Shown here: piece by piece, positions 22,635 to 49,971 of the stretch | Numbering within the stretch: the stretch's first letter is position 1 | How the letters are laid out: each line of letters begins with the position of its first letter | Assembly: GCA_016946835.1 (NCBI GenBank) | Contig: JACVTC010000060.1 | Span: 336,001-400,000 of the forward strand | From: Neocallimastix lanati (nom. inval.) | Lineage: Eukaryota > Neocallimastigomycota > Neocallimastigomycetes > Neocallimastigales > Neocallimastigaceae | Reading direction: 5' to 3' | DNA length: 64,000 nt | Translations under genes and position numbers: made by a program | Notes under the pieces: generated by a model | What the model saw: only the letters and a program-made list of their open reading frames with translations | What the model was told of the DNA's origin: nothing | Database searches by the model: none

Positions 22635-22676
<42 letters not shown>

Positions 22677-23749: not shown

Positions 23750-23780
<31 letters not shown>

Positions 23781-24290: not shown

Positions 24291-24396
24291 ACTGGAAGTT
24301 GGCTTTCTCCCATAATCTATTTTAAATTGCTATCGCTTCTAATATTTTGCTGATGAGGATTTTGATTATCAAAGTACCTAGGATTACTTTTATTTT

Positions 24397-25869
24397 TTAT
24401 TTCCTCCATATTTCTTGCATTGTTGTAGTTATCATTGTTATAGTTGTCATAATTAGTATTATTAGTATTATAATTATTATTTCCATAATTACTATTACTG
24501 TTATAATTATTATTTCTATTATAATTATTATTGTTATTATACATATTATTGTTATTATAATTATTATTGTTATAATTGCTATTAATATAATTATTATTGC
24601 TATAATTGTTATTATTATAATTATCATTGTTATTATAATTATTTTTTCCTCTATTGTTGTTCCTAAAATTATAATTACCATTGTTAATATTATTATTATT
24701 GGAATTATTATTATAGTTACCAAAATTATTATTATTATTATTATTATTGTTACTGTTATTGAAATTATTATTATTATTATTATTGTTACTGTTATAGAAA
24801 TTATTATAATTATTATTATTGTTATTATAATTACTGTTATAATTATTATTATCATATAGAGTATTATAATTATTATTATTATTATTATTAATATTATAAT
24901 TATTTCCATTATTTCGTTATTAAACATTCTATTTCCGTTATTATTATAATTATTTTCATTATTAAATCCAGAATTAAATTTTCCGAAGGTCATTAATTGA
25001 TTCTGATCCTGACTATAATTAAGAGATTTATTTTTATTTCTTAAATTTCTTTTGTTACATTCTCTTGCTTTGTGACCTGGTTTGCCACAGAGGTAGCAAG
25101 TAATATTTCTAAATTGATTATTATTATTGTTGTTATAATTATACCTTGAATTAAATCTTCCTTGACGATATCGGCCAGTAGAAAACAGATCAGCATTGCC
25201 CACATAATACGCATTTTGGATAGAGTTATCTAAATCCCTATTTCCTTCGGTCAATCCTCTATATAATGGATGTTCTAATAAAGAATTTCGACAATTAGAA
25301 TTATTTTGGAAGACCATAGAAGTGTTGAGAAATTCATTATTTCCTATGGTCCTTTTTTCGGCTTTCTCGGCTCTTACAGCCACTTCAAAAGCATCCGACA
25401 AGGTATCACATTCGGCTAAGAGAATTTGAGAATGAACATGTATTCTTGATTTTATTGAATTTAAATAATCATCGACGGATATAATTTTCTGATAATCTCT
25501 ATCTAATCGATGATACAAGTTTAAATAACGGTAGTTAAAATTCTTTATATTTTCATTTTGTTTTATTTTCAGATTTTTTAAAATGGAGCATTTATCAGCT
25601 GGTTTTATATCCATATACTTTTCAATAGCTGATTGCACCTCTTTATAGTTTGGATACCTTGTGATATTATTTCGAGTGGTTACTAATGATTTCAAAACGT
25701 TTCTCAAGTCAGCCTCAACGGCTATTTTTAACCATACAAAAATTCTGGATGAATCTTGGATGTCATGCATTTCCATGACACCCTTAAAATCTTCTATCCA
25801 TGTGTCTATGTCTTTACCATAGTCATAGAGATATGGTAGATCACGTTTTACTTTGGAAGCGTCAACCAT
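24397..25869 (-). CDS. element 1 Gag (capsid and CCHC nucleocapsid)
   Basis: The start at 25869 follows the 5' LTR and a short leader by about 220 bp. Residues 1-200 look like a Retrotrans_gag capsid (DIDTWIEDFKGVMEMHD, YLNLYHRLDRDYQKI, LAECDTLSDAFEVAVRAEKA). A CCHC zinc knuckle, C258-C261-H266-C271, lies in CYLCGKPGHKARECNK with a basic tail. After about residue 320 the frame turns into poly-Ile; the natural continuation is Asn-rich in the next frame (about 24900 down to 24317), so a slip in the repeat has shifted it. Gag assembles the virus-like particle and binds the element RNA. Confidence 0.85.
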   Translation of the reverse strand: MVDASKVKRDLPYLYDYGKDIDTWIEDFKGVMEMHDIQDSSRIFVWLKIAVEADLRNVLKSLVTTRNNITRYPNYKEVQSAIEKYMDIKPADKCSILKNLKIKQNENIKNFNYRYLNLYHRLDRDYQKIISVDDYLNSIKSRIHVHSQILLAECDTLSDAFEVAVRAEKAEKRTIGNNEFLNTSMVFQNNSNCRNSLLEHPLYRGLTEGNRDLDNSIQNAYYVGNADLFSTGRYRQGRFNSRYNYNNNNNNQFRNITCYLCGKPGHKARECNKRNLRNKNKSLNYSQDQNQLMTFGKFNSGFNNENNYNNNGNRMFNNEIMEIIIILIIIIIIIIILYMIIIIITVIIITIIIIIIISITVTIIIIIIISITVTIIIIIIIILVTIIIIPIIIILTMVIIILGTTIEEKIIIITMIIIIITIIAIIIILIAIITIIIIITIICIITIIIIIEIIIITVIVIMEIIIIILIILIMTTITMITTTMQEIWRK

Positions 25870-26088
25870 TATTAACTAACTACTAAAAAAAATGAAAGAA
25901 AACTTATATTTAATACGTTATTTATTTTCTTATTTAGTTCAACTTATCTCTAATATTATTTATTTATTTTTACTATTATATATATATATATTTTAATAAA
26001 AAAAAAATAATTTTTTTTTTTTTTTATAATATTATTATTATTTTCATATAATTTAATAGTGCAGCGCCCGGATTCTCCACCAAAAATA
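25870..26088 (-). other. element 1 leader with primer-binding site
   Basis: AT-rich 5' leader. On the minus strand TGGTGGAGAATCC (26082-26070) starts 6 nt inside the 5' LTR and is the presumed tRNA primer-binding site; it is followed by GGGCGCTGCAC. Elements 2 and 4 carry the same 13 bases at the same place. The two tRNA species in this window cannot be the primer, since their 3' ends do not match. Confidence 0.75.
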
Positions 26089-26808
26089 TGATACGATATA
26101 TTTTAAATATTCGTATTTACAATAGTTTTGGGCGCTACACTGGGGAATTGTATTAAATTATATATTCTAATAATAATATTAATTATTTTATTTAGTTATT
26201 TAAAAATTTTTATTTTATGATATTTGTTTTGTAATATTTTATTTTTATTTTATTTTAATTTTATTTTATTTTAATTTTATTTTATTTTATTTTATTTTAT
26301 TTTATTTTTATCATATTAATTAACTATTAATAATTATGATTTAATTATAATATTCTATAATTAATTACTTAAACAACTAATTTTATTAAAACTAATAACT
26401 AAACTACTATCTCGACTAATTAAAACATTTTTCTTATATTAAATCAACTATTACTAATTAACATATATCAATAATTTATTAACAAGTTTTTTTTTTTTTT
26501 TATAATAATATTTTTATATATTTTTTTTTCATAATTATTATCTCTATATTAAATCATAATTATTATATTTTATATAAACATTAATATAAAAGTTTATATT
26601 ATAATAATTAAATTTTATACTATAATAATATTATTTTATATGATTTATAATTAATATAATTCACTATTTTTATATAATTAATTTTATAATAATATATATT
26701 ACTATTTTTATATAATTAATTTTATAATATATATTACTAACTTTATATAATTAATATAATTTAATAATAATTTTAAAATATCATTATTTTTCTTTTCATC
26801 TTGTATCA
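26089..26808 (-). repeat. element 1 5' LTR
   Basis: 720 bp, TGATACGATAT…CTTGTATCA. Differs from the 3' LTR only by a few bases and short repeat-length changes. Confidence 0.9.
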
Positions 26809-26811
26809 TCA

Positions 26812-27784
26812 TGTAAGAAATAATAATTATTTACTAATAAATAATTATTATTTCTTAGTCTTTATAATTATTGATAATAATTATTAATTTATTTAAATTA
26901 TAATTAATTCATACATTGAGATATTATTATCAAATTTATTATAATTGTAATTATTCATACACTTAAATAATATTAGAAAATTTATTTAAATAATTATTAT
27001 ATGTACACTTATTAATATTATTAATCTTATTTAGTTATTCATTTAATTATCAAGTTAATGTAGACATTAGTTTTATTTATTTTTTACATTGTACATTTAA
27101 AAGAACAATTAATAAGTTTCTGTATTTTTTATAATTCTGTATTTTAGTTTAAAGATAGTTTTATGTTAATAAGTTTAGATTAGATTTTAAAAATAATATT
27201 TAGAAAAATAGAATAATTTAGATCATTCCGGTTATTATTGATTTTTCCTTTTATTTGATGATCTAAATTAAAATTTAGGAAATCGATATATTAAGGTTTT
27301 ATCCAAATATAAAATAATATATTTGGTTTTACTTAATATATATGATGATCGATATGAATAGAATATCGATCAAAAAACTTATCTAGTTTTTTCTTCTAAT
27401 CTTTTTCTAGATAAGATATTTTTTAAGATTAGAAAACCCTTTTTATTTAACCTTATTTCCATAAAAAATATAAATAAGGCTCTTGATTTCCCTTTAAGAA
27501 ATCAAGAGTTATTATTATAAAAATATAGTTATAATAATAGCAATTTTATATTTTAAATTTTAATAAATTAATAAAACATTTTATTCAAAAACATATTTTT
27601 TAAAACCAAATTTATCCAAATATTCCTTCTTTTACTTTTTGTGTTGTTATTATAATTAATTTTATAATAAACTCTCTTTTTAGGTAAAATTTTTATTTTT
27701 ATTTTATTTCTCAACTTAATGAATTAGTCATTAAGTTGAAGTTAATAATCATATTTAGTAATAGAACTTAGTATGATTATTACA
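26812..27784 (+). mobile_element. family A solo element (A2), reference copy
   Basis: 973 bp, TGTAAGAAATAAT…GATTATTACA, flanked by a perfect CATCA duplication (26807-26811, partly made of the last two bases of element 1, and 27785-27789). The 5' end is a long hairpin (TAAGAAATAATAATTATTTA pairs with 26838-26858). Internal hairpins: GATCGATAT/ATATCGATC near 27346-27370, CTTATCTAG/CTAGATAAG (27378-27386 with 27407-27415), CTCTTGATT/AATCAAGAG near 27480-27508. No coding capacity; whether it is a solo LTR or another kind of small element is open. Confidence 0.75.
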
Positions 27785-27791
27785 CATCAAT

Positions 27792-28838
27792 TGATAAATA
27801 ACAAAATTATTAAATTAAAATAAATAATAAAAAACAAATTCTTGATAAAGTTTTCTAACTTAACCCAAAAATTAATCCATTCTAAAAAAAAAAATTAAAT
27901 CCATATTTAAGAAAAATTAATTAAATAAAGATAATTAAAATAAAATAATAATAAATTAATTAATTATTAATAATTTTAATTAAAAATTAAAATAAATTAA
28001 TAAATAATATTTTTCTAAGACTACAAATAAACAAAATAATAAACAAATTTAATAAATTATAAATAACAAATAAACAAACTTATAAACATCTCAAAATTAA
28101 AATTAACTAGTTAAATAATTTTTTAAGTTACTTTTATTTAAAATAATGATTATTTTATTTATTTTATAACTCAACTTTTATAAACAAATTGTAATTAAAA
28201 TAACATTTTAAAACTCATCTTTATCAACATTTTAATTGTAAATATTGTTTAATTTAATAATAAATTATTCTTTATTTCTCTTTTATTAATTTTATTATTT
28301 TAATGTAAATAGTTTAAAATCAAAGAAAAATATAAAAACATGTAAATATTTCTTATAAATTATTCTTTATTATTAATTATTTAATAAATTATTATAAATA
28401 TTTTATTAGTTTTAATAATCAAAAGTATGATTATTAATTATTTAATAAATTATTATAGATATTTTATTAGTTTTTAATAATCAATTTTTTTTATGATTAT
28501 TAATTATTTTGATAAATTATTATATATTTTATTAGTTATTAATAATCAATTTTATTATTAAAATTTAAAATAAATTAGTATAAATAATAAATATTTCATT
28601 TTATTATTTTATTAGTTTTTAACAATTATTTTATTAATTTAAACAAAATTAATTATTAAATAAATAAAGATTAATATTAAAATAAAAATAAATTTTTTTA
28701 ATAAAACATTTTTGTGTTTAATAATAAAACATATTTATTTTTTTAAATTCCTTAAATCAATTTTTATTCAGTATTTATCCTTTTATTCACTTCTGCAAAA
28801 TTTAATTTTTGTAGATTAAGAATATTAGGTATAAATCA
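27792..28838 (+). repeat. element 2 5' LTR
   Basis: TGATAAATAAC…GGTATAAATCA, 1047 bp, AT-rich, non-coding. Confidence 0.92.
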
Positions 28839-28839
28839 A

Positions 28840-28852
28840 TGGTGGAGAATCC
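28840..28852 (+). other. element 2 primer-binding site
   Basis: TGGTGGAGAATCC, one base after the 5' LTR; complementary to a tRNA 3' end GGATTCTCCA-CCA. The tRNA has not been identified from this window. Confidence 0.75.
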
Positions 28853-29279
28853 TCTTGTTGCCCCGGTGGTAAGTAAAATTTTTTTAGTTTAATATTAGAA
28901 TAAGCCTAGTTATTCAATGGTAATATTAAACAATAATTAATACAATAAATTAGTCTAGTTTTAGAATAACTCTAAATTATTCATAGTAATAGACTCAAAT
29001 AGATTTATCTAAATAATATGCAAATAAAATATTATAGCAATAAATTATTATAAATTAAAGTTATTAATATAAATTAATCAACAAATAATATACGTTAAAT
29101 AAACTGCAAATTAAATTAAATTTATCTTTAATAATTAAATAAAAAAAAAAAAAAAAAAAAAAAAAATTTTTTTTAAAGATAATTAAATAGTATTCATATT
29201 ATTCAATTTAATTAAATAATAAAGTATATATTATAAGTAATAAGTAATAATAATAATAAAATTTATTAGTAAAATTTTA

Positions 29280-29322
<43 letters not shown>

Positions 29323-29352
29323 ATTAGAAAAATTTTAATATAAAAAAATTTT

Positions 29353-29392
<40 letters not shown>

Positions 29393-29536
29393 AAAATAAA
29401 AATAAAAATAAAATATAACGGAAGAACTTTAAGAAGTTCTATTATAAAATTATTATTTATTTTTCAAAAAAGAATATTGTTGCTTTAGAAGCAATAATAT
29501 AAGTAAAATAATAAGTGGTTTCCGTGATTAGTTTAT

Positions 29537-29668
29537 TCTTTCACAGTCGGCGCGCTGGGAAGCTCTGAACTATTCTACAAACGTATAAACGTGTAGGAGA
29601 ATCACTGGTACGAGTAGTACATGACGCCTGAGCAAGTGGGCAAGCTGGCTACGAGTATACTACCTACT
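29537..29668 (+). other. structured RNA island 1 in the element 2 leader
   Basis: A sharply GC-richer stretch inside AT DNA. Visible pairings: ATTCTAC (29572-29578) with GTAGGAGAAT (29593-29602, bulged) enclosing ACGT/ACGT; GTAC…GTAC (29608-29620); GTAGTA (29614-29619) with TACTAC (29658-29663), an alternative to the previous one. A packaging, dimerisation or translation signal is plausible for a leader RNA; no known family is recognised. Confidence 0.5.
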
Positions 29669-29850
29669 TATTACTTATATTATTGGAAAATCGTAATTAA
29701 TATTCTTTTGAGAATTATTAATAATAAATATTTATAATTTAACTTTTTATTCTTCTTTAAATATTCAAATAATAAAAATTTATAAATACCATTATACTAC
29801 TTAACCTTTTATTTTTTTTAATATTTTCTAGGATATTATTGTATAAAATA

Positions 29851-29920
<70 letters not shown>

Positions 29921-30059
29921 AATAAATAAATATATAATAAAAAAAAAATAAAATTAGAAAACAATAAAATTTAAATTAAGGAAAACAAATAAAGAAAAGA
30001 AGTATTTTTTTTAGTTGGAGGAACTGCTTCTGTTCTCTTGACTGATTGATACTTATAGT

Positions 30060-30262
30060 AGGAATCTCTTACCCTTAATACTAGTGTATTATTGCAGTAA
30101 GAGCTAACGGACTGTAGAATAAGAATCAATACGGGGGAGTAGGCGCTGATTATAAGTAGAGATCTACGTTAGGTGTAGACGTAGTGTAAAACTCCTATAA
30201 TCAGTGGGACCAAACGTCGTATTATTCTACAACCGTACTATAAGGACGGGAAATCATTCAAG
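30060..30262 (+). other. structured RNA island 2 in the element 2 leader
   Basis: A nested set of perfect stems: CTCTTAC (30066-30072)/GTAAGAG (30097-30103) around TAATAC/GTATTA with a TAGT loop; then an outer stem GTAGAATAA (30114-30122)/TTATTCTAC (30222-30230) enclosing CTGATTATA (30146-30154)/TATAATCAG (30196-30204), which encloses CTACGT/ACGTAG (30164-30184). This many long complementary pairs in order is not expected by chance and indicates a selected RNA fold. Confidence 0.6.
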
Positions 30263-30330
30263 ATAAACTAAAGATAATAAGAATTAATAATTTTAGAAAT
30301 ATTACTACTACTACTAATAATAATAATTAA

Positions 30331-30331
<1 letters not shown>

Positions 30332-30377
<46 letters not shown>
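30332..30377 (+). promoter_or_regulatory. 46-nt poly(A) tract abutting the gag start
   Basis: An uninterrupted run of A ends exactly at the gag ATG (30378). Poly(A) leaders at start codons are known to help initiation in poxvirus late mRNAs; a similar role here is only a guess. Confidence 0.5.
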
Positions 30378-30381
<4 letters not shown>

Positions 30382-31310
30382 AAACAACTACCAATGCTAT
30401 TACTTTTAGTAGATTACCAATATTAGGTGAAGAAAAAGTCCAATATGAAGAATGGAAATTCGCCTTTGAAAATTGGTGTCGAAAATATAAAATTGAAAAC
30501 GAAGAAAAGAATGAATATTTAATTGCCGTAACTACAGATAAAGCAAGAACTATTGTTATAAATTCTTTAAATAAAGCACAAGCTGACTCTTATGAAATAA
30601 TCTTAGAAAACTTAAAGAAAAGATTTAAACCTTGTACGCCAAAGAATGTAAAATTTTTGGAAATATCAACATTAACCATTAAGAAAGGTGAAAAAGTTTC
30701 CGACTTCGATACAAAATTCTTACAACTCTTAAATCAATTACAATTAGATGGAAAGGATTATATTAGTACTCCATACTACATAAATGCATTTAGAAACTGG
30801 TCTAAAATGTATGAGTATTTATTAGAATCAGAACCTACTAAATTAAGTGATGCAATGGAAATAACTTCAAAAAAGGAAAAAATGCTTAAACTTCTTGAAG
30901 ATAATAAACCAAAATATAAAACTCAATTCTCAAATGTAAAGAAGAATCTAAATAACACTAATAATAACAATAATAAAAATACTAATTTTAGATCTTTTAA
31001 CACTAATTATTACAATAAAATTCCTTTTATCTCTAATACTAGGACTAATGAAAATTCCAGTTATAATAATAAATTTAGAAACAATAACTATAACAACAAT
31101 TTTACTACAAATAGAAATTTTTACAACCCTGTAGAATTCAACAAAGGAGTCGAACAGAGAAGAGCAACTTTAAAAGGTTCTCAATTCACTGATAAAGAAC
31201 TAGATGATATAACAAAAAAATTATCCGATTTAAAAATCAACCTATGCATAAATTGTCAGCGTATTGGTCACATTGTTGAAGAATGTCCAGAATTAAACCA
31301 TTTAAATTAG
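30378..31310 (+). CDS. element 2 Gag
   Basis: 310 residues, open throughout. Residues about 20-190 are a Retrotrans_gag-type capsid (YEEWKFAFENWCRKYKI, LTIKKGEKVSDFDTKFLQLL, YINAFRNWSKMYEYL, DAMEITSKKEKMLKLL). A basic Asn-rich stretch follows (about 200-260), then a C-terminal CCHC knuckle C290-C293-H298-C303 (CINCQRIGHIVEEC). The protein packages the element RNA. It stops at TAG 31308, which directly follows the slippery heptamer used to make Gag-Pol. Homologous to the damaged Gag of element 4. Intact gag in a polymerase-less element suggests that the particle protein is still being kept. Confidence 0.92.
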
Positions 31311-31340
31311 TTATCGGGAGTACGCAATCTCCCGAGATAA
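31301..31340 (+). promoter_or_regulatory. -1 ribosomal frameshift signal between gag and pol
   Basis: Slippery heptamer T-TTA-AAT (31301-31307) in the gag frame, immediately followed by the gag stop TAG. After a 7-nt spacer comes a GC-rich hairpin CGGGAG (31315-31320)/CTCCCG (31329-31334) with loop TACGCAAT. This matches the X-XXY-YYZ rule and the usual 5-9 nt spacing. Slipping one base back leads directly into the open protease frame. Element 4 has the equivalent signal with co-varying stem bases. Confidence 0.88.
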
Positions 31341-32677
31341 ATAAAATTGCAACAAACAACTATGATCAAGAAAATACTATAGAATATGAAGGAAACAATA
31401 ATTATATGATTAATGCAGCCCAAAAGAGAAAATCGCTAAGTAGGAATGCATTGGATAAAAATAAAATATCACCAAGTAATAAATCTATAGTAAAACCTTC
31501 CATTCTAAATCAACCTAATATAAAAGCTGTTAAACAACAGAAGAAAGCCATTAGAGATAAAAGAAGAAGAGAAATTACAAATGATATAGAAGACATGGAT
31601 TTATCTAATAATAATATTACGCATGAAAAATCTAATAATAATAGTGAAAGTGTTCGTGCAACTAATTTTGACAAACCCCAACCCAATACTCCTAATGAAA
31701 ATAATTATCAAGATATTAATTCAAATACTATACCAGAAAAAGTTAAAACAAAAGGTAAGCGAAACATGACCGAAATACAAATGTTAAAACCTGATGATAA
31801 ATTCAATATTCTAGAAGAAGCCAATAATTTATATCCTAAAATAAGCCTAACACAATTATTATCAGCATGTCCATCTATAAGAAAAGATCTAGAACAAGGT
31901 TGTAAACCACGAGTTGAGAAAATACTTTATACTATTCAAAATTTAAATATTCCTATATTGTGTGGAAAAATAGGAAACAAATCAGTCAAAATACTTTTCG
32001 ACACAGGTGCAAATGTTAACATCATAACTAAAAATTCACTTGAAGAACTAGAAAATGTACTCATTAATAATTGTGACCTTTCTGAAACTATTACAATTGC
32101 CGATGGTACAATACTCCATACTAATTCTTATATAAATTTAAAATTAATTATAAATAATAACTTAACTGTGAATGAAAAATTTTATATAATAGATTATACA
32201 AATCCATTCTTTAATATTATATTAGGAAGAGGTATACAAAAGAAGTACAGACTCTACATTGATCCAGATGATGATTGCTTATATCAAAAAACAAAAAAAG
32301 GAATTAAAAGAATAACTGAAATATATAATAACCATACTTCTTTAAAGACGCCTATGTGTAATGCAATAATAATAGAAAAGAATAAAGGTATCGGAAGTAC
32401 TCTTTTGCAAAAGGAGGAAGACAAATTAGAACACCCAATTTGTTGTTTAAGTAGGACATTGTCAATCAACAATAACAAACCAATAAAATTTATAACTGAT
32501 TATAAGCCACTTTTAGGTTTGCTCAAGAAAAATATTCCTAACAACAATAGACATGCTCGTTGGATAGAAGAATTCAATAAATACAAAACCAACCTAGTTT
32601 ATCAAAAAAGAAAAAGAAATCTTTTTGATGATGCACTTTCAAGACTATCATCAAAAGACTCCGAAGCAATACTTTAG
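31302..32677 (+). CDS. element 2 truncated Pol: protease joined to the RNase H end
   Basis: Entered by the -1 shift (first in-frame ATG at 31283; 464 residues from there). A basic stretch (RDKRRR, near residue 91) and a linker precede the retropepsin domain with LFDTGANVNII (238-248, catalytic D240) and the flap motif NIILGRGIQKKY (311-322). Around residues 362-370 the frame passes without a break from protease-linker sequence (CNAIIIEKNK) into RNase H (GIGSTLLQKEED), so RT and the first RNase H catalytic Asp are gone. TDYKPLLGLL and DDALSR at the end are the remaining RNase H. The product can cut Gag but cannot copy RNA. Confidence 0.88.
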
Positions 32678-32804
32678 TTCTTGAAGATCCACAAACAGGA
32701 AAACTCCTTAAAAGAAATGTTCATATAAAAATTTTTTCCCTTATGTACTACAAGAAAATGATACAACTTCAAGGGACGAAGTTGACTCTTAAGGGCCGAG
32801 AAAT
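32678..32804 (+). other. element 2 integrase tail remnant and polypurine region
   Basis: In another frame the first 60 bases read VLEDPQTGKLLKRNVHIK, the usual end of a Ty3/gypsy Pol, so integrase was deleted between SSKDSEAIL and this point. ACTTCAAGGGACGAA (32766-32780) and CTTAAGGGCCGAGAAAT precede the 3' LTR; the latter is the probable polypurine tract. Confidence 0.7.
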
Positions 32805-33852
32805 TGATAAATAACAAAATTATTAAATTAAAATAAATAATAAAAAACAAATTCTTGATAAAGTTTTCTAACTTAACCCAAAAATTAATCCATTCTAAAA
32901 AAAAAAAATTAAATCCATATTTAAGAAAAATTAATTAAATAAAGATAATTAAAATAAAATAATAATAAATTAATTAATCATTAATAATTTTAATTAAAAA
33001 CTAAAATAAATTAATAAATAATATTTTTCTAAGACTACAAATAAACAAAATAATAAACAAATTTAATAAATTATAAATAACAAATAAACAAACTTATAAA
33101 CATCTCAAAATTAAAATTAACTAGTTAAATAATTTTTTAAGTTACTTTTATTTAAAATAATGATTATTTTATTTATTTTATAACTCAACTTTTATAAACA
33201 AATTGTAATTAAAATAACATTTTAAAACTCATCTTTATCAACATTTTAATTGTAAATATTGTTTAATTTAATAATAAATTATTCTTTATTTCTCTTTTAT
33301 TAATTTTATTATTTTAATGTAAATAGTTTAAAATCAAAGAAAAATATAAAAACATGTAAATATTTCTTATAAATTATTCTTTATTATTAATTATTTAATA
33401 AATTATTATAAATATTTTATTAGTTTTAATAATCAAAAGTATGATTATTAATTATTTAATAAATTATTATAGATATTTTATTAGTTTTTAATAATCAATT
33501 TTTTTTATGATTATTAATTATTTTGATAAATTATTATATATTTTATTAGTTATTAATAATCAATTTTATTATTAAAATTTAAAATAAATTAGTATAAATA
33601 ATAAATATTTCATTTTATTATTTTATTAGTTTTTAACAATTATTTTATTAATTTAAACAAAATTAATTATTAAATAAATAAAGATTAATATTAAAATAAA
33701 AATAAATTTTTTTAATAAAACATTTTTGTGTTTAATAATAAAACATATTTATTTTTTTAAATTCCTTAAATCAATTTTTATTCAGTATTTATCCTTTTAT
33801 TCACTTCTGCAAAATTTAATTTTTGTAGATTAAGAATATTAGGTATAAATCA
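32805..33852 (+). repeat. element 2 3' LTR
   Basis: 1048 bp, nearly identical to the 5' LTR, followed by the CAAT duplication. Confidence 0.92.
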
Positions 33853-33866
33853 CAATTTCAGAAATG

Positions 33867-39421: not shown

Positions 39422-39901
39422 AAAAGTTGGCTTTTTACTTTCTAATTAACGAAAGTTTAATCATTTAAATATATTAATTTGTATATTTTTTCGTTATTTT
39501 TATCTTTTTTTTAATTAGTATTTCATTTTTTAATTCATTACTATTTTTATTATATCATAGTCTTTATTTTTCATACCATCATTAAATTAAGTTATATTTA
39601 TTAAATTATTTAATTATTCATTATTCATTATTTATTATTTATTATTTATTATTTATTATTTATTATTTATTATTTATTATTTATTATTTATTATTTATTA
39701 TTTATTATTTATTATTTATTATTTATTATTTATTATTTATTATTTATTATTTATTATTTATTATTTATTATTTATTATTTATTATTTATTATTTATTATT
39801 TATTATTTATTATTTATTATTTATTATTTATTATTTATTATTTATATAATTTTTTTTTGAATAAAATAATATTAATTATTCAGATATTTTTAATTTTTGT
39901 T
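39422..39901. repeat. tRNA-Ser 3' flank with a heptamer repeat
   Basis: The first 180 bases (GAAAAGTTGGCTTTTTACTT…) are shared with the flank of the second tRNA-Ser at 49972. From about 39611 to 39843 there is a perfect (ATTATTT)n array of some 33 units. Then comes GAATAAAATAATATTAATTATTCAGA, also shared. Confidence 0.85.
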
Positions 39902-40395
39902 TGATACGATATTTTATTTATATATCTAAATTAATATTTATTTATGGGCAATGACAAGAAGGAACTATGACAAAATAATATATTCTAATATTAAATAGAA
40001 ATAACACATACAATAACACAAAATAAAGTATTAAATATATCTTTTTAATGTTCTCTTTATTTTTTATTAATAATTATTAATTATTACATTAATTATTATT
40101 ATTACTCTATTATATAAATATTATAATTTAATATCTCAAATATATATATTCATCTAATTTATAAATCAATAAATATAATAAAACATTAATATCTGAACTA
40201 AAATATAAAAAATAGTTATTTATTTGAATTAATTTATCATAAGTATAAACTTATAAATAAAAGAATTCTCCGTTTAAAATTATTATTATAAAATTATATA
40301 TATTATTATAAAATTATTACTGACCAATAATATTTAAGTATTTCTTTAACCTAAAGAATCTACCTAAATACCATATTTATAGTGGTCATGTATCA
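39902..40395 (+). mobile_element. family B solo LTR (B1)
   Basis: 494 bp, TGATACGATATTTT…CATGTATCA. Left flank TGTT (39898-39901), right TGTT (40396-40399, its last T being the first base of A4). Outermost and presumably oldest member of the pile before tRNA-Ser 2. Confidence 0.78.
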
Positions 40396-40398
40396 TGT

Positions 40399-41226
40399 TG
40401 TGTGAAATTAGATTTATTGTTATAAGTCTATATTTCTTAATTCTTAATAATTATAAAATAATTATTAAGTTTACTTAATTTTATAATTAATTAATTATTA
40501 ATAATGTAACAAATTTTATTAAATTATATATTAAATTTTATTAAATACATTTTGTATTTAATTTGTATGTATTTCTATTTTCATTTCTGTATTTATTTTT
40601 GTATTTTTCTTAATTTTATTCATAAGTTAATTTATTAAATTGTTAAAGTATGAATTAATTTAACCATTTAATTTACGTAATTTAGAACATCAGTTATTAA
40701 GGTTTTTCCATAAAAATGGTTTTACTTAATAATACGATAACTAATAAGTATAGATTATTGGTTGAAATCTTTCTAGGTTTTTCTACTAATCTTTTCCTGG
40801 AAAGTATTTTGTTAAGATTAGAAAATTCTTTATTTCTTTATTTTAAAATATAAAAAGGACTCTTGAGTTTCCTTTCGAAAATCAAGAGTTATAATTATAA
40901 TAAATTATAATAATAATAAAAAATATTCATAATTTTTTTTTAATAAAATATTTAAATTTCAAATAAATAATTTATAATAATTTCTAAATAAGATTTATAA
41001 TAAAAATCTAAAATATTTAATAATAAAACATATTAATAAGTTATTATAAAACATATTTTTATTATTCCCCTCACACTTAGTGTTCTAAGTTTATTATAGT
41101 TTCTTATAATAAACTCTCTCTTATAAGATAAGTATTTAAACTTTTATTTTATTTTGTTCTAATTAATATTAATAGTTAATTAATATTAATAGATAATAAT
41201 TTCTATATTTTGTAGAAATTATTACA
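40399..41226 (+). mobile_element. family A solo element (A4)
   Basis: 828 bp, TGTGTGAAATTAG (two changes from TGTAAG)…GAAATTATTACA. Hairpins CTTTCTAGG/CCTGGAAAG (40769-40804) and CTCTTGAG…TCAAGAG near 40860. Flanks CATGT and AATGC are imperfect. Confidence 0.7.
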
Positions 41227-42091
41227 AATGCTTGATATGGGCTGGGGTTGAAACACTAATATATTAAAAACAAAAATAAATAAATATTAACACACAAAAA
41301 TGAATTTGGAAACAAAAAAAAAAAGTTAATTTATAAAATATTCTTTTATATAAAATTAAAATTAAAATTATTTGTTCCAAGTATTAAAAAGAAAGAAATT
41401 TATTCTTCTTTTTATACTTTTATTTTAATATATTTTATTAATCATTAATATATTCTTTATAAATAAAAAAAAACTAATATTTTATTTTAATTTTTAATTA
41501 TTATTTTAAATTATTTTAATAAAAAATAATATTTATTAAATTAAAATATAAAAATTAATTTAGAGATTGTATCACGAAGGACATACCGGGCGGTAACTTC
41601 TTCTTGATATTGTTTTCAGAGAGAGAATTATACAGAATTGATATTTTCTGTATTTTAGATCATTTTTATTATTGAAATTCTTCTGTATTTTAGTTCATTT
41701 TTATTTTAATAAAGATTTAATTTATTTTTAATTTTTGATTTATTTTTAGTTTATTTCAAAGGTTTAGAAAATATTATACAGAAACTTATAATTCTGTATT
41801 TTATATCAAATATTTATTGAAATAGGTTTTTATTATTCTTAATATAAAAATAAGAATTAATAATGATTTAAATATTATATAATTTTTAATAAGAATATTT
41901 AATAATAATTTTTATTATATTTAATATTAACAAAAGATTTTTATTAGAATATTTAATAATAATTTTTATTATATTTGATATTAATAAAAGATTTTAATAA
42001 GAATACTTAATAATAATTTTTATTATATTTGATATTAATAAAAGATTTTAATAATAAGATTTAATAATAGTTTTTATTTTATTATTATTAA

Positions 42092-43147
42092 TGTTAAGAT
42101 AATAACTAAATTTCAATTCAATTTCAATTTCAATAATTCAGTTATTTAAATATCAATATTAATGAATAATAATATATAATAATTATTATTAAATTAACTT
42201 TATTAAAATATTTAGGAATTAGTCTAGGCCAACTAATTGACTAAATAATATTAACATATTGAAATTAATATATTAAATAATGTAAACATGTAATTGTAAT
42301 ATTGATATGCGGGACTTTTATGTGCAATAATTTATAAGCAATGGGTTTTAAATTAATAAAATTATAATATTCGTATAATTAAAATAATAATTCTAATTCA
42401 TAAAAATTTACAAGAGAGTCCTCTATTTCTAATGTAAATAATTTAATCTATTTATAAGAAAAAGTATTATATTAAATATATATTCTAATATATAGAACTA
42501 TATTAATTTTATATGAATTAAAGTATTATAATTATTATAATTATAATAATACATATTGAAATAAAATAAAATAAAATAATTATTATCAAAAAGATATAAA
42601 TTTAATATTTAATATTTATTATTAAATATACAAATATGTTAATACACATATTTGTTTTATTTGTTTTATATCATTATTAAATTAATTTTTATATTAATTT
42701 ATTATCAAAATTTCTACATATTATATTTTAATTATTAAATATAGTATTTAGCTATATTAGATTCTTATATTTTATTTATATTAAATATTTATATTATTTT
42801 CTTATTTTATATTATCAATATAAAACTTATATTAATACTTTTACGTACTCATATTAATAATTAATATTTTAATAATTAATTATTTTATATAAATACATGT
42901 TTAAATCTTTTGATTAATCCTTTGTAGGATTATTGTAATTTAAATTATAGTAATAATTATATAAAATAATAATGTAATAAAATATTATTAAGATTAAATA
43001 AAATTTATATTTTAAATAAAAACTTATTTATAAGATTTACTAATAACAATATGTTTTAAATAAGAGTAAATTTAAATTATTAGTTAATTACTATAATTTG
43101 GCATCTTGACCTAATCTTTAAGACCAAATTATCTCAAAACTTTGACA
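42092..43147 (-). mobile_element. family C LTR (C4) nested in R2
   Basis: TGTTAAGATAATAAC…AACTTTGACA, flanked by perfect ATTAA (42087-42091, 43148-43152). Reverse-oriented relative to the mini element's LTRs, which it resembles most. Net 685 bp without family H. This is one of two complete family C copies not at a tRNA AATAA site. Confidence 0.78.
42303..42673 (+). mobile_element. family H solo LTR nested in C4
   Basis: 371 bp, TGATATGCGGGAC…TTTATATCA, third level of nesting. Flanks ATAT/TTAT match at three of four bases. Homologous to the fragment at the left window edge. Confidence 0.65.
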
Positions 43148-43200
43148 ATTAATGTATTTAATAGGAAATACAAGGTATTTAGTGACACCCCGTATCATGC

Positions 43201-44011
43201 TGTAATAATTTCTACAAAAATATAGAAATTATTATATATTAATATTAACTATTAATATTAATTAAAATAAAAAAAAAATAAAAGTTTAATACTTATTTTT
43301 ATAAAAGAGAGTTTATTATAAGAAACTATAATAAACATTGAACATTAAGTATGAGGAATAATAAAAATATGTTTTATAATAATTATTAATATGTTTTATT
43401 ATTAAATATTTCAAATTTATATCATAAATCTTATTTAGAAATTATTATAAATTATTTATTTGAAATTTAAATATTTTATTAAAAAAAATTATGAATATTT
43501 TTTATTATTATTACAATTTCTTATAATAATAACTCTTGATTTTCGAAAGGAAACTCAAGAGTCTTTTTTATATTTTAAAATAAAGAAATAAAGAATTTTC
43601 TAATCTTAACAAAATACTTTCCAGGAAAAGACTAAAATAAAAACCTAGAAAGATTTCAACCAATAATCTATACTTATTGGTTATCGTATTATTAAGTAAA
43701 ACCATTTTTATGGAAAAACCTTAATAACCGATGTCCTAAATTACGTAAGTTAAACTGTTAAATTAATTCACACTTTAACAATTTAACCGAATTAACATAT
43801 GAATAAAATTAAGAAAAATACAAAAATAAATACAGAAATGAATATAAAAATACATACAAAATAAATACAAAATGTATTTAATAAAATTTAATATATAATT
43901 TAATAAAATTTATTAATAATAATTAATTAATTATAAAATTAAGCAAACTTAATAATTATTTTATAATTATTAAGAAATATAGACTTATAACAATAAGTCT
44001 AATTTCTTACA
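43201..44011 (-). mobile_element. family A solo element (A5)
   Basis: 811 bp, TGTAATAATTTC…AATTTCTTACA, three bases after R2. Contains CTCTTGATTTTCG…AACTCAAGAG near 43533 and the CTTTCCAGG…CCTAGAAAG hairpin. Closest to A4 but inverted. Flanks CATGC/TATGA. Confidence 0.7.
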
Positions 44012-44017
44012 TATGAT

Positions 44018-44644
44018 TGATAAATAATAATAAATTAAACTATAAATATTAATAATAATAAATTATTATAAACTAATTAAATTAATTAAATTACTTAAAT
44101 TACTTAAATTACTTAAATTACTTAAATTAATTAGAATAATATAATTAAATAAATTAAACTAAAAATCAATATTAAATATTTTTAGTAAATTATTATAATT
44201 ATAAATAGTTAATTTCCTAAATTAGTTTTATTTTTATTTTAATTATATTAATAACTTTTATATTATTTATTATAAAAGAAATATATTTAATATTTCTTTA
44301 AGTTATTATTATATATTCAATAATTGTTTTAATTATTATTTTTTTTATAATTAATTAAATTATTTTTATATATATGAACTCAATATTTTTAATTAAAATA
44401 TAAGAATTATGCTTAAATATATTAAATAGTTTGTTTTTTGCAAACAAATATTACTTTATTTTAATTATTAAATATAAAAGAGAGAAAAATGTACTAAATA
44501 AAAATGTAAAGATTATTAAAAATTTATTCTTAATAAAAATATTAAAAATAAAATATTTTTATAAATAAATAATAATAATAAGTTCAAATAATATTAATAT
44601 TAAGAAATATTATTATTCATGCGATAACTACTAAATAATTATCA
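44018..44644 (+). mobile_element. family I solo LTR
   Basis: 627 bp, TGATAAATAATAAT…AATTATCA, flanked by perfect TGAT (44014-44017, 44645-44648). Its start resembles the element 2 LTR. Contains an (AAATTACTT)n mini-repeat near 44087-44130. Confidence 0.7.
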
Positions 44645-44648
44645 TGAT

Positions 44649-45119
44649 TGATACGATATTTTTATAATCGTATACTTTTATGGGACTTGCAATATTTTAT
44701 TTGAGGAAAATTAATATATTCTAATAAAACAATTAATAATTTTAACACAATAATTACATTAAATAAAACTTAAATATTTTATTATTATATATTTAATACT
44801 TTATTTATAATTATTTAAATTTTACATTAATTACATTTTTAATATTACTTTTATTATTTTATTTTACTAATTATTACTAACTAAAAATCTCAATTAAGGC
44901 CTCTCTCTAAGACCTTTGAATTATATTTATTTTCTCTATCTCTAAAATTTTTTTTTTTTTTTTTAATAATTCTTATTTTTAATTTATTTATTTTTAATTT
45001 TTTTTTATTGTTTATTATTATTTTAAACTATATAATTTTTATTTTAACTCTAATTAAATTTTATTTTATTATTTTTCTAAATTTATTAATTTTTATATTT
45101 ATTTATTCATCCCGTATCA
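44649..45119 (+). mobile_element. family B solo LTR (B2)
   Basis: 471 bp, TGATACGATATTTTT…CATCCCGTATCA, left flank TGAT, right TGA plus the T of A6. Confidence 0.75.
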
Positions 45120-45122
45120 TGA

Positions 45123-45990
45123 TGTAATAATCATACTAAGTACTTTCACTTAATATGATTATTAACTTCAACTTAACGATTAATTCATTAAGTTGAGAAA
45201 ATAAAAAAAAGTTTTACCTAAATATTAGTGGAGTTTATTATAAAATTAAATATAATAATAACACGAAAAATAAGAAGGGAAAGATTTGTATAAATTTAAT
45301 TTTTAAAGTATGTTTTTTGAATAAAATATTTTATTAATTTATTAAAGTTTAAAATATAAAATCGTTACTATTATAACTATATTTTTATAATAATAACTCT
45401 TGATTTCTTAAAGAGAACTCAAGAGCCTTATTTATATTTTTTTTGTTAAAATAAGGTTAAATAAAAAAGGTTTTCCTAATCTTAACAAATTTCTTATCTA
45501 GAAAAAGATTAGACAGAAAAACCTAGATAAGATTTTTGATCGATATTCTATCCATATCGATCAATACATTAATTAAGTAAAACCGATTACTTCCACGAAG
45601 TAATTAATAATTGGAAAAAACCCTAATTAACCGATTCCTAATCTAATCTAATGATCGAAAATAAAAGAATAAAATAGTTAAAAAATATTTCGATCTTAAA
45701 ATAATAAATTTACAAAAAAGGAAAATAAAATATTAAATAAAATACAGAATACATTATTAAATATATAATAGAATACATATTATGTTTGTTTACAATTTAA
45801 TTTAAATAAACAAAAACTAATAAATTTAATAATTAAATATATAGTAAATTATAATTATTTATAAATGAATAATTAATAATTAATTAAATAAAATTTTGTT
45901 ATAATTTAAATAAATTTATAATTATTATCAATAATTATAAAGACTAAGAAATAATAATTATTTATTAGTAAATAATTATTATTTCTTACA
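45123..45990 (-). mobile_element. family A solo element (A6)
   Basis: 868 bp, TGTAATAATCATAC…TATTTCTTACA; inverted close relative of A2. Carries all family hairpins (for example TTATCTAG…CTAGATAA near 45494-45532). Flanks CATGA/CATTA. Confidence 0.72.
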
Positions 45991-45995
45991 CATTA

Positions 45996-46467
45996 TGTAA
46001 GAAACTTAGATAAATTTATTATAAAATTTATCTATCTTTCTTATTTAATACATTAATTTAATACATTAAATTATTGTATTTATTTTAACCAATAATATTT
46101 AATTATTAATTTATATATATTTGATTCTCTTGATTTCTCGAAGAGAACTCAAGAGTTATTTTAGAAATTTTATAATAAATAATAATTCAAATAAAATAAT
46201 TAATTAATAAACAAAAACCCTTTTTAATAAAACATATTTTATAAATATTTGTGTCTTTTATTTCTTTTGTGTTATTGTTTATTATAAACTTTCTATAATA
46301 AACTCTATCTTATATTTAAGTTAAGTATAATAATTTATTTATATTATTTTATATTTATTTAATTATATTTATTTTTATTTTCTCAAATTAATGTTAATTA
46401 GTAATAATTAATGTTAATTTGTAGTTAAGAAATTATTTATAATTAATTTTATAAGTAATTTCTTACA
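45996..46467 (+). mobile_element. family A solo element (A7), short
   Basis: 472 bp, TGTAAGAAACTTAG…AATTTCTTACA. Keeps the CTCTTGATT…AACTCAAGAG hairpin (near 46127) but lacks the TCTAG one, so it is internally deleted. Flanks CATTA/CATAA. Confidence 0.65.
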
Positions 46468-46472
46468 CATAA

Positions 46473-47383
46473 TTTAAAGAATAATAATTAATATAATTAA
46501 TTTTTATTAAAATAAAAAATAATTATTAATCTTTATTAAATAAAATAATAATTATTTAATAAAATTTATTAACTTTATTATAAAATATTTCTAATATAAA
46601 ATTATTATTAATAATTTAAAATTAATATTGTAAAATTATTATTCTTTATCATTGTATTAATTAATAATATTAAAATAATTAAACATTAATATTTTTTATA
46701 TTTGTTAAAATTCATTTGATAATTAAATGTTAAGTTTTAATTTAAATAATTGTTACATTAATATAATTTTAAACAAATCTAATATAAATTATAGAATTAT
46801 AATTTAGAAATAATTATAAAATTATATTAAAAATCATAATGTAACAAATCAAATGAAAAAAGAATAATTAATATTTAAAAAAATTAATTAAAATAAAACA
46901 ATGTCATGTATAATTGACATTGTTTAAATAAAACAAATGTTAATTGAAGTTTTCCGATTGGAAAATATCGGTTTTTATTCAATTAACATATGATCAATTT
47001 TATTAATAATTGATCATTAAACTTTTTAGGTTTTTCTCCCAAATCTTTTCCTAAAATGTTATTCATTAAGATTTGGAACTTTACTATAAATAATTCTTGA
47101 TTTTCTTTATTTTGAAAATCAAGAGTTATTATTATAAGAATATAATTATAATAATAAACAAAATAAATTTTTAATTTTTTAAAAATAACAAAAATCTTAA
47201 TAAAAATTATTTTTAATAAAAAATATTTTAATAAAAATTTTATTTGAACTAATCTCTTATAATAAACTCCTACCCTATTTTAAGTTTCGTTAAGTATTTT
47301 CTTTTTTTTAATTTCTCGATTAATATTAGTATTAATTGTAGAAAAGAATTAAATTTAATTAAGTTTAAATTTAATTCTTTACA
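46473..47383 (+). mobile_element. family A solo element (A8)
   Basis: 911 bp, TTTAAAGAATAAT…AATTCTTTACA; the first G of TGTAAAG is lost. Perfect CATAA duplications (46468-46472, 47384-47388). Hairpin TTTTAGG/CCTAAAA near 47023-47056. Confidence 0.7.
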
Positions 47384-47389
47384 CATAAT

Positions 47390-48678
47390 TGGTACGTGCT
47401 TGTACCTTGGGCTTATTGACACTTCACTTGTTAAAATAAATTATTCTAGATTGAATGAACACTTAAATTTTATAACTTTTATTAATTCTTATTATTAAGA
47501 TATTTTATTTATTCTCTTTTTTTTTTTTTTTTTTACAAGAATCATTTTTTTTTTTTTTTTTTTTTTTATATATAAATACAATAAAATATTTTATTTATTA
47601 TAATTCTAAAATTCTATATTTCAATATTATAGGATATTAAATTATTAGTTATCTCTTTTATAACTCTATAATTTTTAATCCTAACTCCGTTCTTGAAATA
47701 TATTATTTATCTCCGAATTATAATCTCCTCTACATCATCTCATTATTATTATTATTATTATTTTATTTTTTTTTTTTTTTATAAATCAATTTTAATATAT
47801 ACATCCTAAACAAATTTAATTAATTTTTTTAATTAATAAACAAAAAAATTTTTTTTTTTTTTTTTTTTAAATAATTTATTAATAATCTAATTTATTAAAC
47901 TATTTTATAATATTTGTTAAGATTTTGATATAATTTATAGTTTAAATTTAAATAAAATAATATGGTTTATTAAAAAATATTCACTAAGTCGATATGTCTA
48001 TATAGTAATATACTATATAGATATATAATAAAAATAATTAATATTTAAATGTTTAGTTTAATAAAAATTTATTTATAATAAACTTTGATAATTAGAATTA
48101 TCAAATTAATTTAATTTTAAATTTGTTTATTTTATTTAATAATAAAATATCTATAATATATTACTATTAAGGTAATTTTACAATAACCTTACAAAGAATA
48201 TAAAAGATAGATTTTTACATCTTTCTTTTATACTTTGTAAGTTACATAATAATAATATTTAATTATAAGATAGTAATAATATAGTAATATAAATACTAAT
48301 AAAATATAAGGATAAATTTAATTATATAATTAATTTGAATAATTGAATTTAATATAGATATGTTGTAAACATATATAAAAACATAATATAAATAAAATAC
48401 ACGTGACGTCAAATGTATCATTGAAATTAATTATTAATATAAACCTTATTTATTAATATTCTCAGAATTATTATGCCTAAGATAACCCTTTAAATATTAA
48501 ACAAGAATTTATATTAATTATTAATTATTTAAATATATATATTATTTATAATTAAATAAATAATATTTTTAATTATTGAAATGTAAATAACTGAAATTGA
48601 GATTTCAATTCAGTTATAATTTCAACAATATTATATTCTTCACTCTGAATTTTATATTTTTATGGGTGCATCGCACCA
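47390..48678 (+). mobile_element. family G solo LTR, interrupted by C3
   Basis: TGGTACGTGCTTGTACC…GGTGCATCGCACCA with perfect TAAT duplications (47386-47389, 48679-48682). Family C3 is inserted in its distal part; net length about 570 bp. The terminal segments GGTACGTGCTTGTACC and GGTGCATCGCACC are each self-complementary. Confidence 0.72.
47915..48627 (+). mobile_element. family C solo LTR (C3) nested in G
   Basis: 713 bp, TGTTAAGATTTTG…ATTTCAACA, flanked by perfect ATATT (47910-47914, 48628-48632). Its sequence is close to the reverse complement of C2. Confidence 0.82.
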
Positions 48679-48682
48679 TAAT

Positions 48683-49188
48683 TGATACGATATTTTTATT
48701 AAACATCAATATCAATATTTATTTTATTTTATTTGGACGATAACAGTAGGGAATAATTGACAAAATAATATATTCTAATATTATATAGAATAATACACAC
48801 AATAATAATATTCACACTTTAATATTTAGTTTATTTATTTTATTTATTTATTATCATTCATCAATAAAAATACATCATCAATATAAATAGTTGTTAATTA
48901 GTTAAAATATAATTAAATCATTCAATAAAATATAATTAATTACTAAAATCTCTCATATTATTAATGTAAACTAAATATAAAACTACACTAAACTATACTA
49001 ATAAACATGTCTATAGGTTAAATTATTAATAAACTAAATTAATATTAATAAAAGATCCATTTCTTAAACTATTATTATTTACTAACTATATATAATATTA
49101 CTAAATTATTATTAACTAATAAGATTTTATCAAATAATTCCTAACCTAAGTTTCACTAAATTATGGTATTTATGGTGGTACCGTATCA
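48683..49188 (+). mobile_element. family B solo LTR (B3)
   Basis: 506 bp, TGATACGATATTTTT…GTACCGTATCA. TAAT on the left (48679-48682); TAA plus T of A9 on the right. Confidence 0.78.
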
Positions 49189-49191
49189 TAA

Positions 49192-49871
49192 TGTAATAAT
49201 CTATTTATAATATACTAACTATAACTAGATTATTAATATTTTAAGATATAAAAATTTATACTTAACTTTATATAGAGTTTATTATAAACACTAAATATTG
49301 AAATAAACAAAAAGACTTTATTTTCTTTTAATTTATTATATAGCATTATATAATAATAACTCTAATTTCTTTAATCAAAGAAATTTGAGTTCTTTTATAC
49401 TTTTTTATTTATAATTATTTTAATAGATGAAATTATTAAATAGATGTAATTATTAAATAAATAAAATAGATAAGATAAAGTTAACAAATCAAATAAAGGT
49501 ATCTAATCTTAACAAATTGATATTCAGGAAAAGATTAGTAGAAAAACCTGAATAACTTCGATTAATATTCTAATATATTAATCATGGTATTAATTAATAA
49601 AAACCCAATCATAATAATATTGGGGAAAAAATTAATTAACCAATTGCTAAAATCTTATAAATTATCAACTAATTGAAATAATAAAATATAAATAATATTT
49701 TTAAGTAATTAATACATTACAACAAATTTGTTTACATTATTTTTCAATATATTAATTTGGATAAATTAATATATTTTTTACATGTTAATAAATATTGAAA
49801 TATAAATGAAATATAAATTAATTAAATAAGAAGATAGATTATTTTATAAGAAATAAATCTATATTCTTACA
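49192..49871 (-). mobile_element. family A solo element (A9)
   Basis: 680 bp, TGTAATAATCTA…ATATTCTTACA, with perfect CATAA duplications (49187-49191 and 49872-49876). Hairpin TATTCAGG/CCTGAATA near 49520-49554. It is the innermost member of the pile and ends 18 bp before tRNA-Ser 2. Confidence 0.74.
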
Positions 49872-49889
49872 CATAATTTTATTGAAGTA

Positions 49890-49971
49890 GTCACTTTGGC
49901 GGAGTGGTTAACGCGGTGGCCTGCTAAGCCATTTCCCTTTGGGAGCGCAGGTTCGAGTCCTGCAGGTGACG
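49890..49971 (+). tRNA. tRNA-Ser (anticodon GCT), second copy
   Basis: Identical over all 82 bases to the gene at 39340 and followed by the same GAAAAGTTGGCTTTTTACTT flank. All DNA between 39902 and 49871 is inserted in its 5' flank. Confidence 0.96.

Follow-up and report, generated by a model that had tools for sequence, protein, structure and literature searches.

Ty3-type long terminal repeat (LTR) retrotransposons are well known to target genes transcribed by RNA polymerase III (Pol III), as the first-pass annotation of the stretch described here had noted. Ty3 of Saccharomyces cerevisiae inserts a few base pairs ahead of where Pol III starts, roughly 12-15 nt before the mature tRNA (PMC5006619), with TBP and Brf1 as the minimal factors (PMC8632968, PMC5911963), and a table footnote on dictyostelids mentions later elements stacking beside earlier ones at one tRNA gene (PMC5006619); here and below, published systems are described from the accessible passages of these sources. 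Here, we report a pile of twelve LTR elements in front of a tRNA-Ser(GCT) gene of Neocallimastix lanati, located in a 64-kb window (the whole stretch analysed; contig JACVTC010000060.1, positions 336,001 to 400,000; C555 below). Very probably, the layers are LTR retrotransposons that each located this tRNA-Ser gene by distance, and their order along the DNA is the order of their arrival.

Thirteen tRNA genes lie in the window (11 Arg(TCT), 2 Ser(GCT)). The genome searched (199 Mb in 762 contigs) held at least 40 identical tRNA-Ser(GCT) genes (the best 40 of 74 first-look candidates were scored), several of which form a tandem array on C555, gene and spacer repeating; tRNA-Ser 1 and tRNA-Ser 2 of the window were 89.7% identical across 507 bases. 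The left border of the pile, placed by the first-pass annotation at the flank of tRNA-Ser 1, is more precisely the downstream spacer of that gene within the array. This spacer contains a long TTATTATTTA-type simple repeat (window 39605-39845).

Twelve LTR elements fill 9,922 of the 9,988 bases between 39902 and the tRNA-Ser(GCT) gene at 49890. They stand in the order B1, A4, R2, A5, I, B2, A6, A7, A8, G, B3, A9 from outside to inside, with 3 to 6 bases between neighbours; order, spacing and near-absence of other DNA are all as first described. Every layer starts with TG and ends with CA, except for the start of A8 (TT). The features are as follows (window coordinates; percentages are substitutions to the nearest copy fetched from elsewhere in the genome).

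39898..39901, outermost copy of the target site (TGTT), where the tRNA-Ser array spacer ends
39902..40395, layer 1, B1 solo LTR (TGATAC..GTATCA), duplication TGTT/TGTT, 4.2%
40399..41226, layer 2, A4 solo LTR, 5-bp duplication CATGT/AATGC, 4.0%
41233..43197, layer 3, R2 solo LTR (TGATAT..GTATCA), duplication TGCT/TGCT, split by C4, left part 4.2%
42092..43147, C4 LTR, inserted in R2 with duplication ATTAA, 50 nt between the two inner ends
42303..42708, H, segment of about 405 bp inside C4 (TGATAT..TTATCA), an insert or a variant of the C LTR
43201..44011, layer 4, A5 solo LTR, duplication CATGC/TATGA, 5.1% to the nearest copy from the A4 search (upper bound)
44018..44644, layer 5, I solo LTR (TGATAA..TTATCA), duplication TGAT/TGAT, 1.8%
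44649..45119, layer 6, B2 solo LTR, duplication TGAT/TGAT, 1.5%
45123..45990, layer 7, A6 solo LTR, duplication CATGA/CATTA, 3.0%
45996..46467, layer 8, A7 solo LTR, duplication CATTA/CATAA, 2.4%
46473..47383, layer 9, A8 solo LTR, duplication CATAA/CATAA, TT start (TG in copies L102 and L103), 0.6%
47390..48678, layer 10, G solo LTR (TGGTAC..GCACCA), duplication TAAT/TAAT, split by C3, left part 0.8%
47915..48627, C3 LTR, inserted in G with duplication ATATT, 51 nt between the two inner ends
48683..49188, layer 11, B3 solo LTR, duplication TAAT/TAAT, 0.4%
49192..49871, layer 12, A9 solo LTR, duplication CATAA/CATAA, inner end 18 nt from the gene, 0.3%
49872..49889, gene-proximal target site and leader CATAATTTTATTGAAGTA
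49890..49971, plus strand, tRNA-Ser(GCT), the target gene

The short gaps had been taken for target duplications, which is right; more exactly, they are overlapping duplications of two lengths. Duplications of 4 bp flank B1, R2, I, B2, G and B3 and are perfect in all six, and duplications of 5 bp flank A4 to A9 and are perfect in two (A8, A9), with two mismatches each in A4 and A5 and one each in A6 and A7. Overall, 8/12 layers have perfect duplications; chance alone would produce an exact match in roughly 2% of cases for 4 bp and 0.8% for 5 bp. Inner ends of the layers fall 16-18 nt from the mature tRNA. Relative to the mature tRNA, the duplications place the 4-bp elements in the register -16..-13 and the 5-bp elements in -18..-14, which would be the positions at which the two groups cut. 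This register predicts the gap between any two neighbours from their types (outer, then inner): 4 for 4-then-4, 5 for 5-then-5, 3 for 4-then-5 and 6 for 5-then-4. From outside to inside the gaps are 3, 6, 3, 6, 4, 3, 5, 5, 6, 4 and 3, and 11/11 fit. Gaps of predicted size also occurred in other stacks (L017, 4 and 3; L012, 5; L014, 4 and 3; L023, 5 and 4). Elsewhere in the genome, 56 copies with flanks were examined, of which 9 were dropped as not full, leaving 25 A-type and 22 B/I-type full copies. A perfect 5-bp duplication, and no other length, was found in 13/25 A-type copies; 5 bp is also the target duplication of Ty3. The B, R, I and G layers differ from Ty3 in their 4-bp cut, and full B- and I-type copies carried 4-bp duplications in 9/22 cases and a 5-bp duplication in one.

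The site word retained between layers was read at 13 copies. The outer nine are TGTT, TGTT, TGCT, TGCT, TGAT, TGAT, TGAT, TTAT and TAAT, and the inner four are all TAAT (ahead of a 5-bp element, the last T of the word doubles as the first base of the element). The shorter list in the first-pass annotation, running from TGTT to TAAT, was correct in substance. Five tRNA-Ser genes have plain array spacer upstream, and there -16..-13 reads TGTT (L016_9370), TGGT, CCGT, TATT or CGTT, i.e., the outermost state of the pile in 1/5 and the innermost in 0/5. At -18,-17, CA occurs in 0/5, and the 5-bp duplications of the pile begin with CA or a one-base variant of it; because of this difference, an element end was presumably already at the site, and the CA bases probably derive from it. 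The word changed four times, where 0.16-0.3 changes are expected from 4-5% divergence.

A different origin of the series has some weight: the steps from TGTT to TAAT could come from solo-LTR recombination of 5-bp elements that deleted layers, or from gene conversion by other tRNA-Ser copies, and not from mutation of the gene-proximal site between insertions. The excess of steps over expectation fits such events, as does their placement, all four falling across 5-bp elements and none across the six 4-bp elements. Deletion of layers by itself cannot make new words, though, and the perfect 5-bp duplications of the 13 A-type copies indicate that entry is not error-prone as such. The site region also seems to evolve fast. 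Among 37 pairs of similar array copies, positions -12..-1 differed by 48% on average versus 7.5% for the 300-nt downstream spacers; the pairs came from 25 tRNA-Ser genes (window plus L009-L028), are non-independent and were selected for spacer similarity, a choice that inflates the ratio. The stretch beside the gene thus seems to change several times faster than the spacer (about six times in these pairs), and site copies pushed outward seem to stay frozen. Flanks of tRNA genes mutate fast through transcription. We regard recombination or conversion as the less probable source of the series, with perhaps a quarter of the weight, and mutation of the gene-proximal site as the better one.

Across the genome, a repeat boundary lies 12-20 nt upstream of 30/40 tRNA-Ser genes; in four of these the repeat is array spacer (L009, L016_9370, L017_6492, L017_9378) and in 26 another repeat. 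Among the other 9-nt bins, 57-65 nt held 12/40, 3-11 nt held 8/40 and the remainder 0-5. The second peak (57-65 nt) comes partly from alignment breaks inside LTRs, and it includes ends of the C family. A scan for the C-end motif in the 150 nt upstream of 51 tRNA genes gave nine hits, seven of them at 63, 64, 65, 66, 66, 66 and 67 nt (five C family by similarity; L015, another family; L028, the motif alone). In the window, C-family LTRs at 7129-7847 and 9552-10053 end 66 nt before tRNA-Arg 7914 and tRNA-Arg 10120, and a third (36191-36852) ends 66 nt before the expected tRNA-Arg start near 36919.

The same distance recurs inside other elements. C4 and C3 had been described as second hits into R2 and G, and both are indeed insertions, with duplications ATTAA and ATATT. 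With R2 innermost at the time, the inner end of C4 would have lain 50 + 16 = 66 nt from the gene; with G innermost, that of C3 would have lain 51 + 16 = 67 nt from it. Corresponding values for interior C copies elsewhere are 68 (L025), 67 (L018), 67 (L022), 65 (L026), 66 (window 36852) and 67 nt (L010); with C3 and C4 included, 8/9 measured fall at 65-68 nt. Of 26 C-family rows, 13 were used for distances and one more (window 54852) was measured separately, the other 12 being fragments, outer parts of measured copies or copies with an unplaceable inner end. A distance of 63-68 nt is thus kept in most cases, in native promoters and in other elements alike. If this reading is right, R2 and G were each once beside the gene, and C4 entered between the arrivals of R2 and A5, C3 between those of G and B3. 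The second boundary peak and the set distances speak against random nested hits as an account of C3 and C4. A full-length element 64 nt upstream of a tRNA gene (L015) has 518-bp LTRs and a Ty3/gypsy pol including integrase; it has the end TCTTAACA in common with C, and overall LTR similarity between the two is absent. A further claim, that C4 was in turn hit by H, is doubtful: no clean duplication flanks H, and another C copy contains a segment 81% identical to the right half of H at the equivalent place (L010, 3065-3245). H may be part of a C variant.

The elements might instead prefer the LTR-end junction or its short word, and not the tRNA gene, the first landing having been fortuitous. Among fetched copies with a perfect duplication, TG stood next door in 11 and CA in 10 of 13 A-type copies (5-bp duplication), and in 8 and 6 of 10 B/I-type copies; taken together, TG lay beyond the inner-side duplication copy in 19/23 and CA before the other in 16/23. 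Copies with duplications thus often appear, from their flanks, to abut further element ends. A tRNA gene was found within about 120 bp of just 2/60 fetched copies (stacks were not followed to their ends). A junction preference does not explain why boundaries cluster 12-20 nt upstream of tRNA-Ser genes, why site words vary among stacks (TAAT, GTAC, GCAT, CAAAT), why C elements hold 63-68 nt in most measured cases whether in a native promoter or in another element, or why the newest elements are innermost. We consider it improbable beside recognition of the gene by distance.

That the outermost layer is the oldest, each element having entered next to the gene, had been proposed from the arrangement alone. 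Whole-genome queries were run with 11/12 layers (R2 and G by their left parts only; best 40 candidates scored per search), and every queried layer has many copies elsewhere. A5 had no search of its own and was compared with copies from the search of A4, to which it is 92% identical. Age was measured as substitutions to the nearest fetched copy, an upper bound that depends on family history. Divergence falls from 4-5% at the outer layers to 0.3% beside the gene (Spearman, layer number versus divergence, -0.89 for 12 layers, with 22/200,000 permutations as extreme; -0.91 without A5), and the trend holds in each duplication class (5-bp group, -0.94, 6/720 orders; 4-bp group, -1.0, 1/720). The proposed check on divergence therefore came out positive as a trend and negative as a strict sequence. 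Private substitutions, counted for all layers but G, broadly agree with the nearest-copy order (B1, 12/481; A4, 12/809; R2, 12/842; A5, 18/801; I, 8/608; B2, 4/464; A6, 11/860; A7, 4/468; A8, 2/886; B3, 2/506; A9, 2/678). FastTree terminal branches (B1 to A8: 0.064, 0.040, 0.057, 0.074, 0.048, 0.023, 0.033, 0.049, 0.005) were set aside as an age measure because they were noisy.

The direction of growth also has support independent of divergence, because a second tRNA-Ser locus offers a present/absent pair at the innermost site. L014 (C555:611800-621700) and L023 (C450:6100-16000) are 100% identical over 2,208 + 526 bases, and the difference between them is a 7,145-bp full-length element, flanked by a CAGCA duplication, that L014 has and L023 lacks; it occupies the innermost position, separating the tRNA-Ser gene from the older stack. 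The LTRs of this element (877 bp) are 100% identical, versus 98.75% for the outer element of L023. By sequence, the 22.5-kb contig C450 seems to be allelic to the 599-622 kb region of C555, and offsets also agree with matches in the A6 and A9 searches. A stack in the window points the same way:

16739..33866, stack before tRNA-Arg 33867 of a full-length element, a solo LTR and a full-length element, duplications TCAA, CATCA and CAAT

Its outer 10-kb element has LTRs 97.8% alike and its inner 6-kb element 99.7%, and LTR-LTR identity thus rises toward the gene in both stacks with two full-length elements. The leader of tRNA-Arg 7914 matches that of tRNA-Arg 33867 and is uninterrupted. The gaps given for other stacks come from an automated junction finder that misses junctions, few element families having been available to it. 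Elsewhere in the window (58912-61533), R-type LTRs follow one another, with AAAG between two of them and an internal repeat expansion.

With divergence, the present/absent pair, LTR-LTR identity and the C3 and C4 distances in agreement, the proposed order of entry is supported. Weaker support comes from the plain-spacer genes, where the outermost word TGTT occurs once and the innermost word TAAT never. The layers might instead have entered equivalent sites in any order, the divergence trend being chance or an effect of family age; nearest-copy distance does mix insertion age with family history, and I (1.8%) and B2 (1.5%) show less divergence than A6 (3.0%) and A7 (2.4%), although these lie nearer the gene. 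Against this stand the rarity of such a trend among permutations and its persistence within both classes, the ordered series of TGATACGATA-starting elements (B1, 4.2%; B2, 1.5%; B3, 0.4%), the fit of C3 and C4 if G and R2 were innermost, and the present/absent pair at an innermost site, and we hold entry in any order to be very improbable. Hardly any credence is left for a misassembly or tandem duplication of tRNA loci that juxtaposed the elements, since, hard as a tRNA-Ser array with similar spacers is to assemble, the layers are bounded by target duplications in a single register, the sub-stack of another gene stands on two contigs (100% over 2,208 bases), and the next best copy of B1 is 91% identical, i.e., there is no second whole pile among the matches listed.

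Several observations nevertheless count against an ordered stack built by distance from the gene, the scarcity of tRNA genes near fetched copies and the misplaced I and B2 among them. No boundary occurs at 12-20 nt in 10/40 tRNA-Ser genes, and 4/5 plain-spacer genes lack TGTT. A gap of 7, outside the rule, occurs in the tRNA-Arg stack, at L014/L023 (one locus), in L010 and in L022. All four imperfect duplications (A4, A5, A6, A7) belong to the 5-bp group, which is not expected from simple decay. The ages rest on differing numbers of compared copies: 8-9 in eight layers, 4 in A8 and 1-2 in G, B3 and A9. Two further C-end motifs lie at 15 and 102 nt, and a C fragment (window 54852-55070) has its inner end 34 nt from an A-type end, which gives 52 nt if the A-type end on its right marked the innermost element at the time.

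The preferred reading, a stack ordered by time, can be set out as follows. Each insertion would place a new copy of the target site next to the gene, the next element would enter there, and older layers would be pushed outward, as the sequence pattern and the present/absent pair at another gene indicate. Elements of the C group would enter mostly at -63..-68, inside whichever element is then innermost (judged by position, with one exception). Full-length elements would later have been reduced to solo LTRs by LTR-LTR recombination. The duplications would record successive states of a fast-changing gene-proximal site; the series itself is read from the DNA, its cause is conjectural. By analogy with Ty3, an initiation factor of Pol III, TFIIIB for instance, may tether the elements.

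Somewhat better than even, in our estimate, are the chances of a broader proposal, in which tRNA genes act as recorders: LTR lineages with different rulers (-13..-16, -14..-18 and about -65) would build time-ordered, self-dating stacks at many genes, with duplications freezing states of the Pol III start and the -65 group marking the layer innermost at the time. If so, a joint reading of many stacks would show in which order transposition waves came and how Pol III promoters mutated in one genome. The order in which elements inserted is usually a guess from their divergence; at this locus position gives the order independently, and LTR dating, family succession and promoter evolution therefore become cross-testable in one genome. 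The strict register (11 gaps without a slip) and two coexisting rulers would also be natural data on how an integrase measures distance.

Other observations concern the surroundings. Genes for tRNA-Met(CAT) were found at L009:1644-1717 and L104:16-87, the latter adjoining an A8-type copy, and further isotypes may thus be targets too. The window also contains a 475-amino-acid ankyrin-repeat open reading frame (ORF) at 2293-3720, whose closest named match is a Neocallimastix lanati protein (82% identity), with Piromyces and Anaeromyces proteins ranking below it. A low-stringency self-comparison of the window (at least 5,000 matches) gave mostly AT-rich chance matches and was replaced by stricter scoring.

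Full-length A-type copies (L012, L014, L023) carry a 1,359-amino-acid ORF with gag, protease, reverse transcriptase, RNase H and integrase. In L012 (1520-5599) the domains are Asp protease (293-395), reverse transcriptase (550-709), RNase H (772-904) and integrase (1000-1170), and the best solved-structure match is Ty3 Gag-Pol (7q5b; E value, 2e-140). The direct LTRs have TG..CA ends (L012, 901 bp, 100% identical, duplication CAAAT; L014, CAGCA, described above; L023, AAAGC). The pol of L015 has a matching domain order spread over four ORFs. Judged from these sequences, the pile elements are Ty3/gypsy retrotransposons where a coding copy was seen (A-type); C, G, R and other families are known here only as solo LTRs. 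The L012 integrase ends just behind an SH3_Tf2-1 domain, and the Pfam families of the three A-type ORFs include no chromodomain, although profiles can miss vestigial ones; relatives at 46-49% identity carry PF00385.

Compared with known systems, the pile resembles Ty3 (sigma) in its Ty3/gypsy pol, with reverse transcriptase and RNase H ahead of integrase, and in entry just upstream of a tRNA gene. It differs in having two duplication lengths with offset registers, several families, twelve apparently ordered layers and a further group near -65; the chromodomain of Ty3 was recognised from structure (PMC8632968), and Pfam found none in the A-type ORF. DGLT-A of dictyostelids is likewise a Ty3/gypsy LTR element, inserts about 15 bp upstream of tRNA genes, has no chromodomain and, like the A-type, has gag and pol in one ORF (PMC5006619); it has another host, and stack depth, register and dating are not described in the accessible part of that source (PMC5006619). 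Tj1, Tyl3/Tyl6/Ylt1 and beta/Tca8 are Ty3/gypsy elements upstream of tRNA starts in other yeasts, at distances of 1-30 bp and none near -65 (PMC5911963, Table 1), and the accessible lines of that review table give no position near -65 for any Ty3/gypsy element (PMC5911963). Nearest to the second ruler is TRE5 of Dictyostelium, fixed at 40-54 bp upstream of tRNA genes (PMC5911963). TRE5 is a non-LTR element, of a kind that uses target-primed reverse transcription, unlike L015, which stands at 64 nt with LTRs and a Ty3/gypsy pol, or C3 and C4, with their TG..CA ends and duplications of 5 bp. In the literature accessible to us, which mostly leaves out subscription journals, neither a stack with dates and a fixed register nor a position near -65 for a Ty3/gypsy element was found. 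In maize and other plants, insertion order is read from nested LTR retrotransposons, which land inside each other at scattered places; the elements of the pile, in contrast, enter at one base position beside the gene and come to lie side by side. The first-pass annotation had called a stack of this depth with readable order new, which seems to stand for depth, register, dating and second ruler but not for stacking itself, already mentioned in the dictyostelid footnote (PMC5006619). Measured against these accessible sources, Pol III targeting and stacking at one tRNA gene were known, and what this locus adds is a fixed-register, dated, two-ruler stack.

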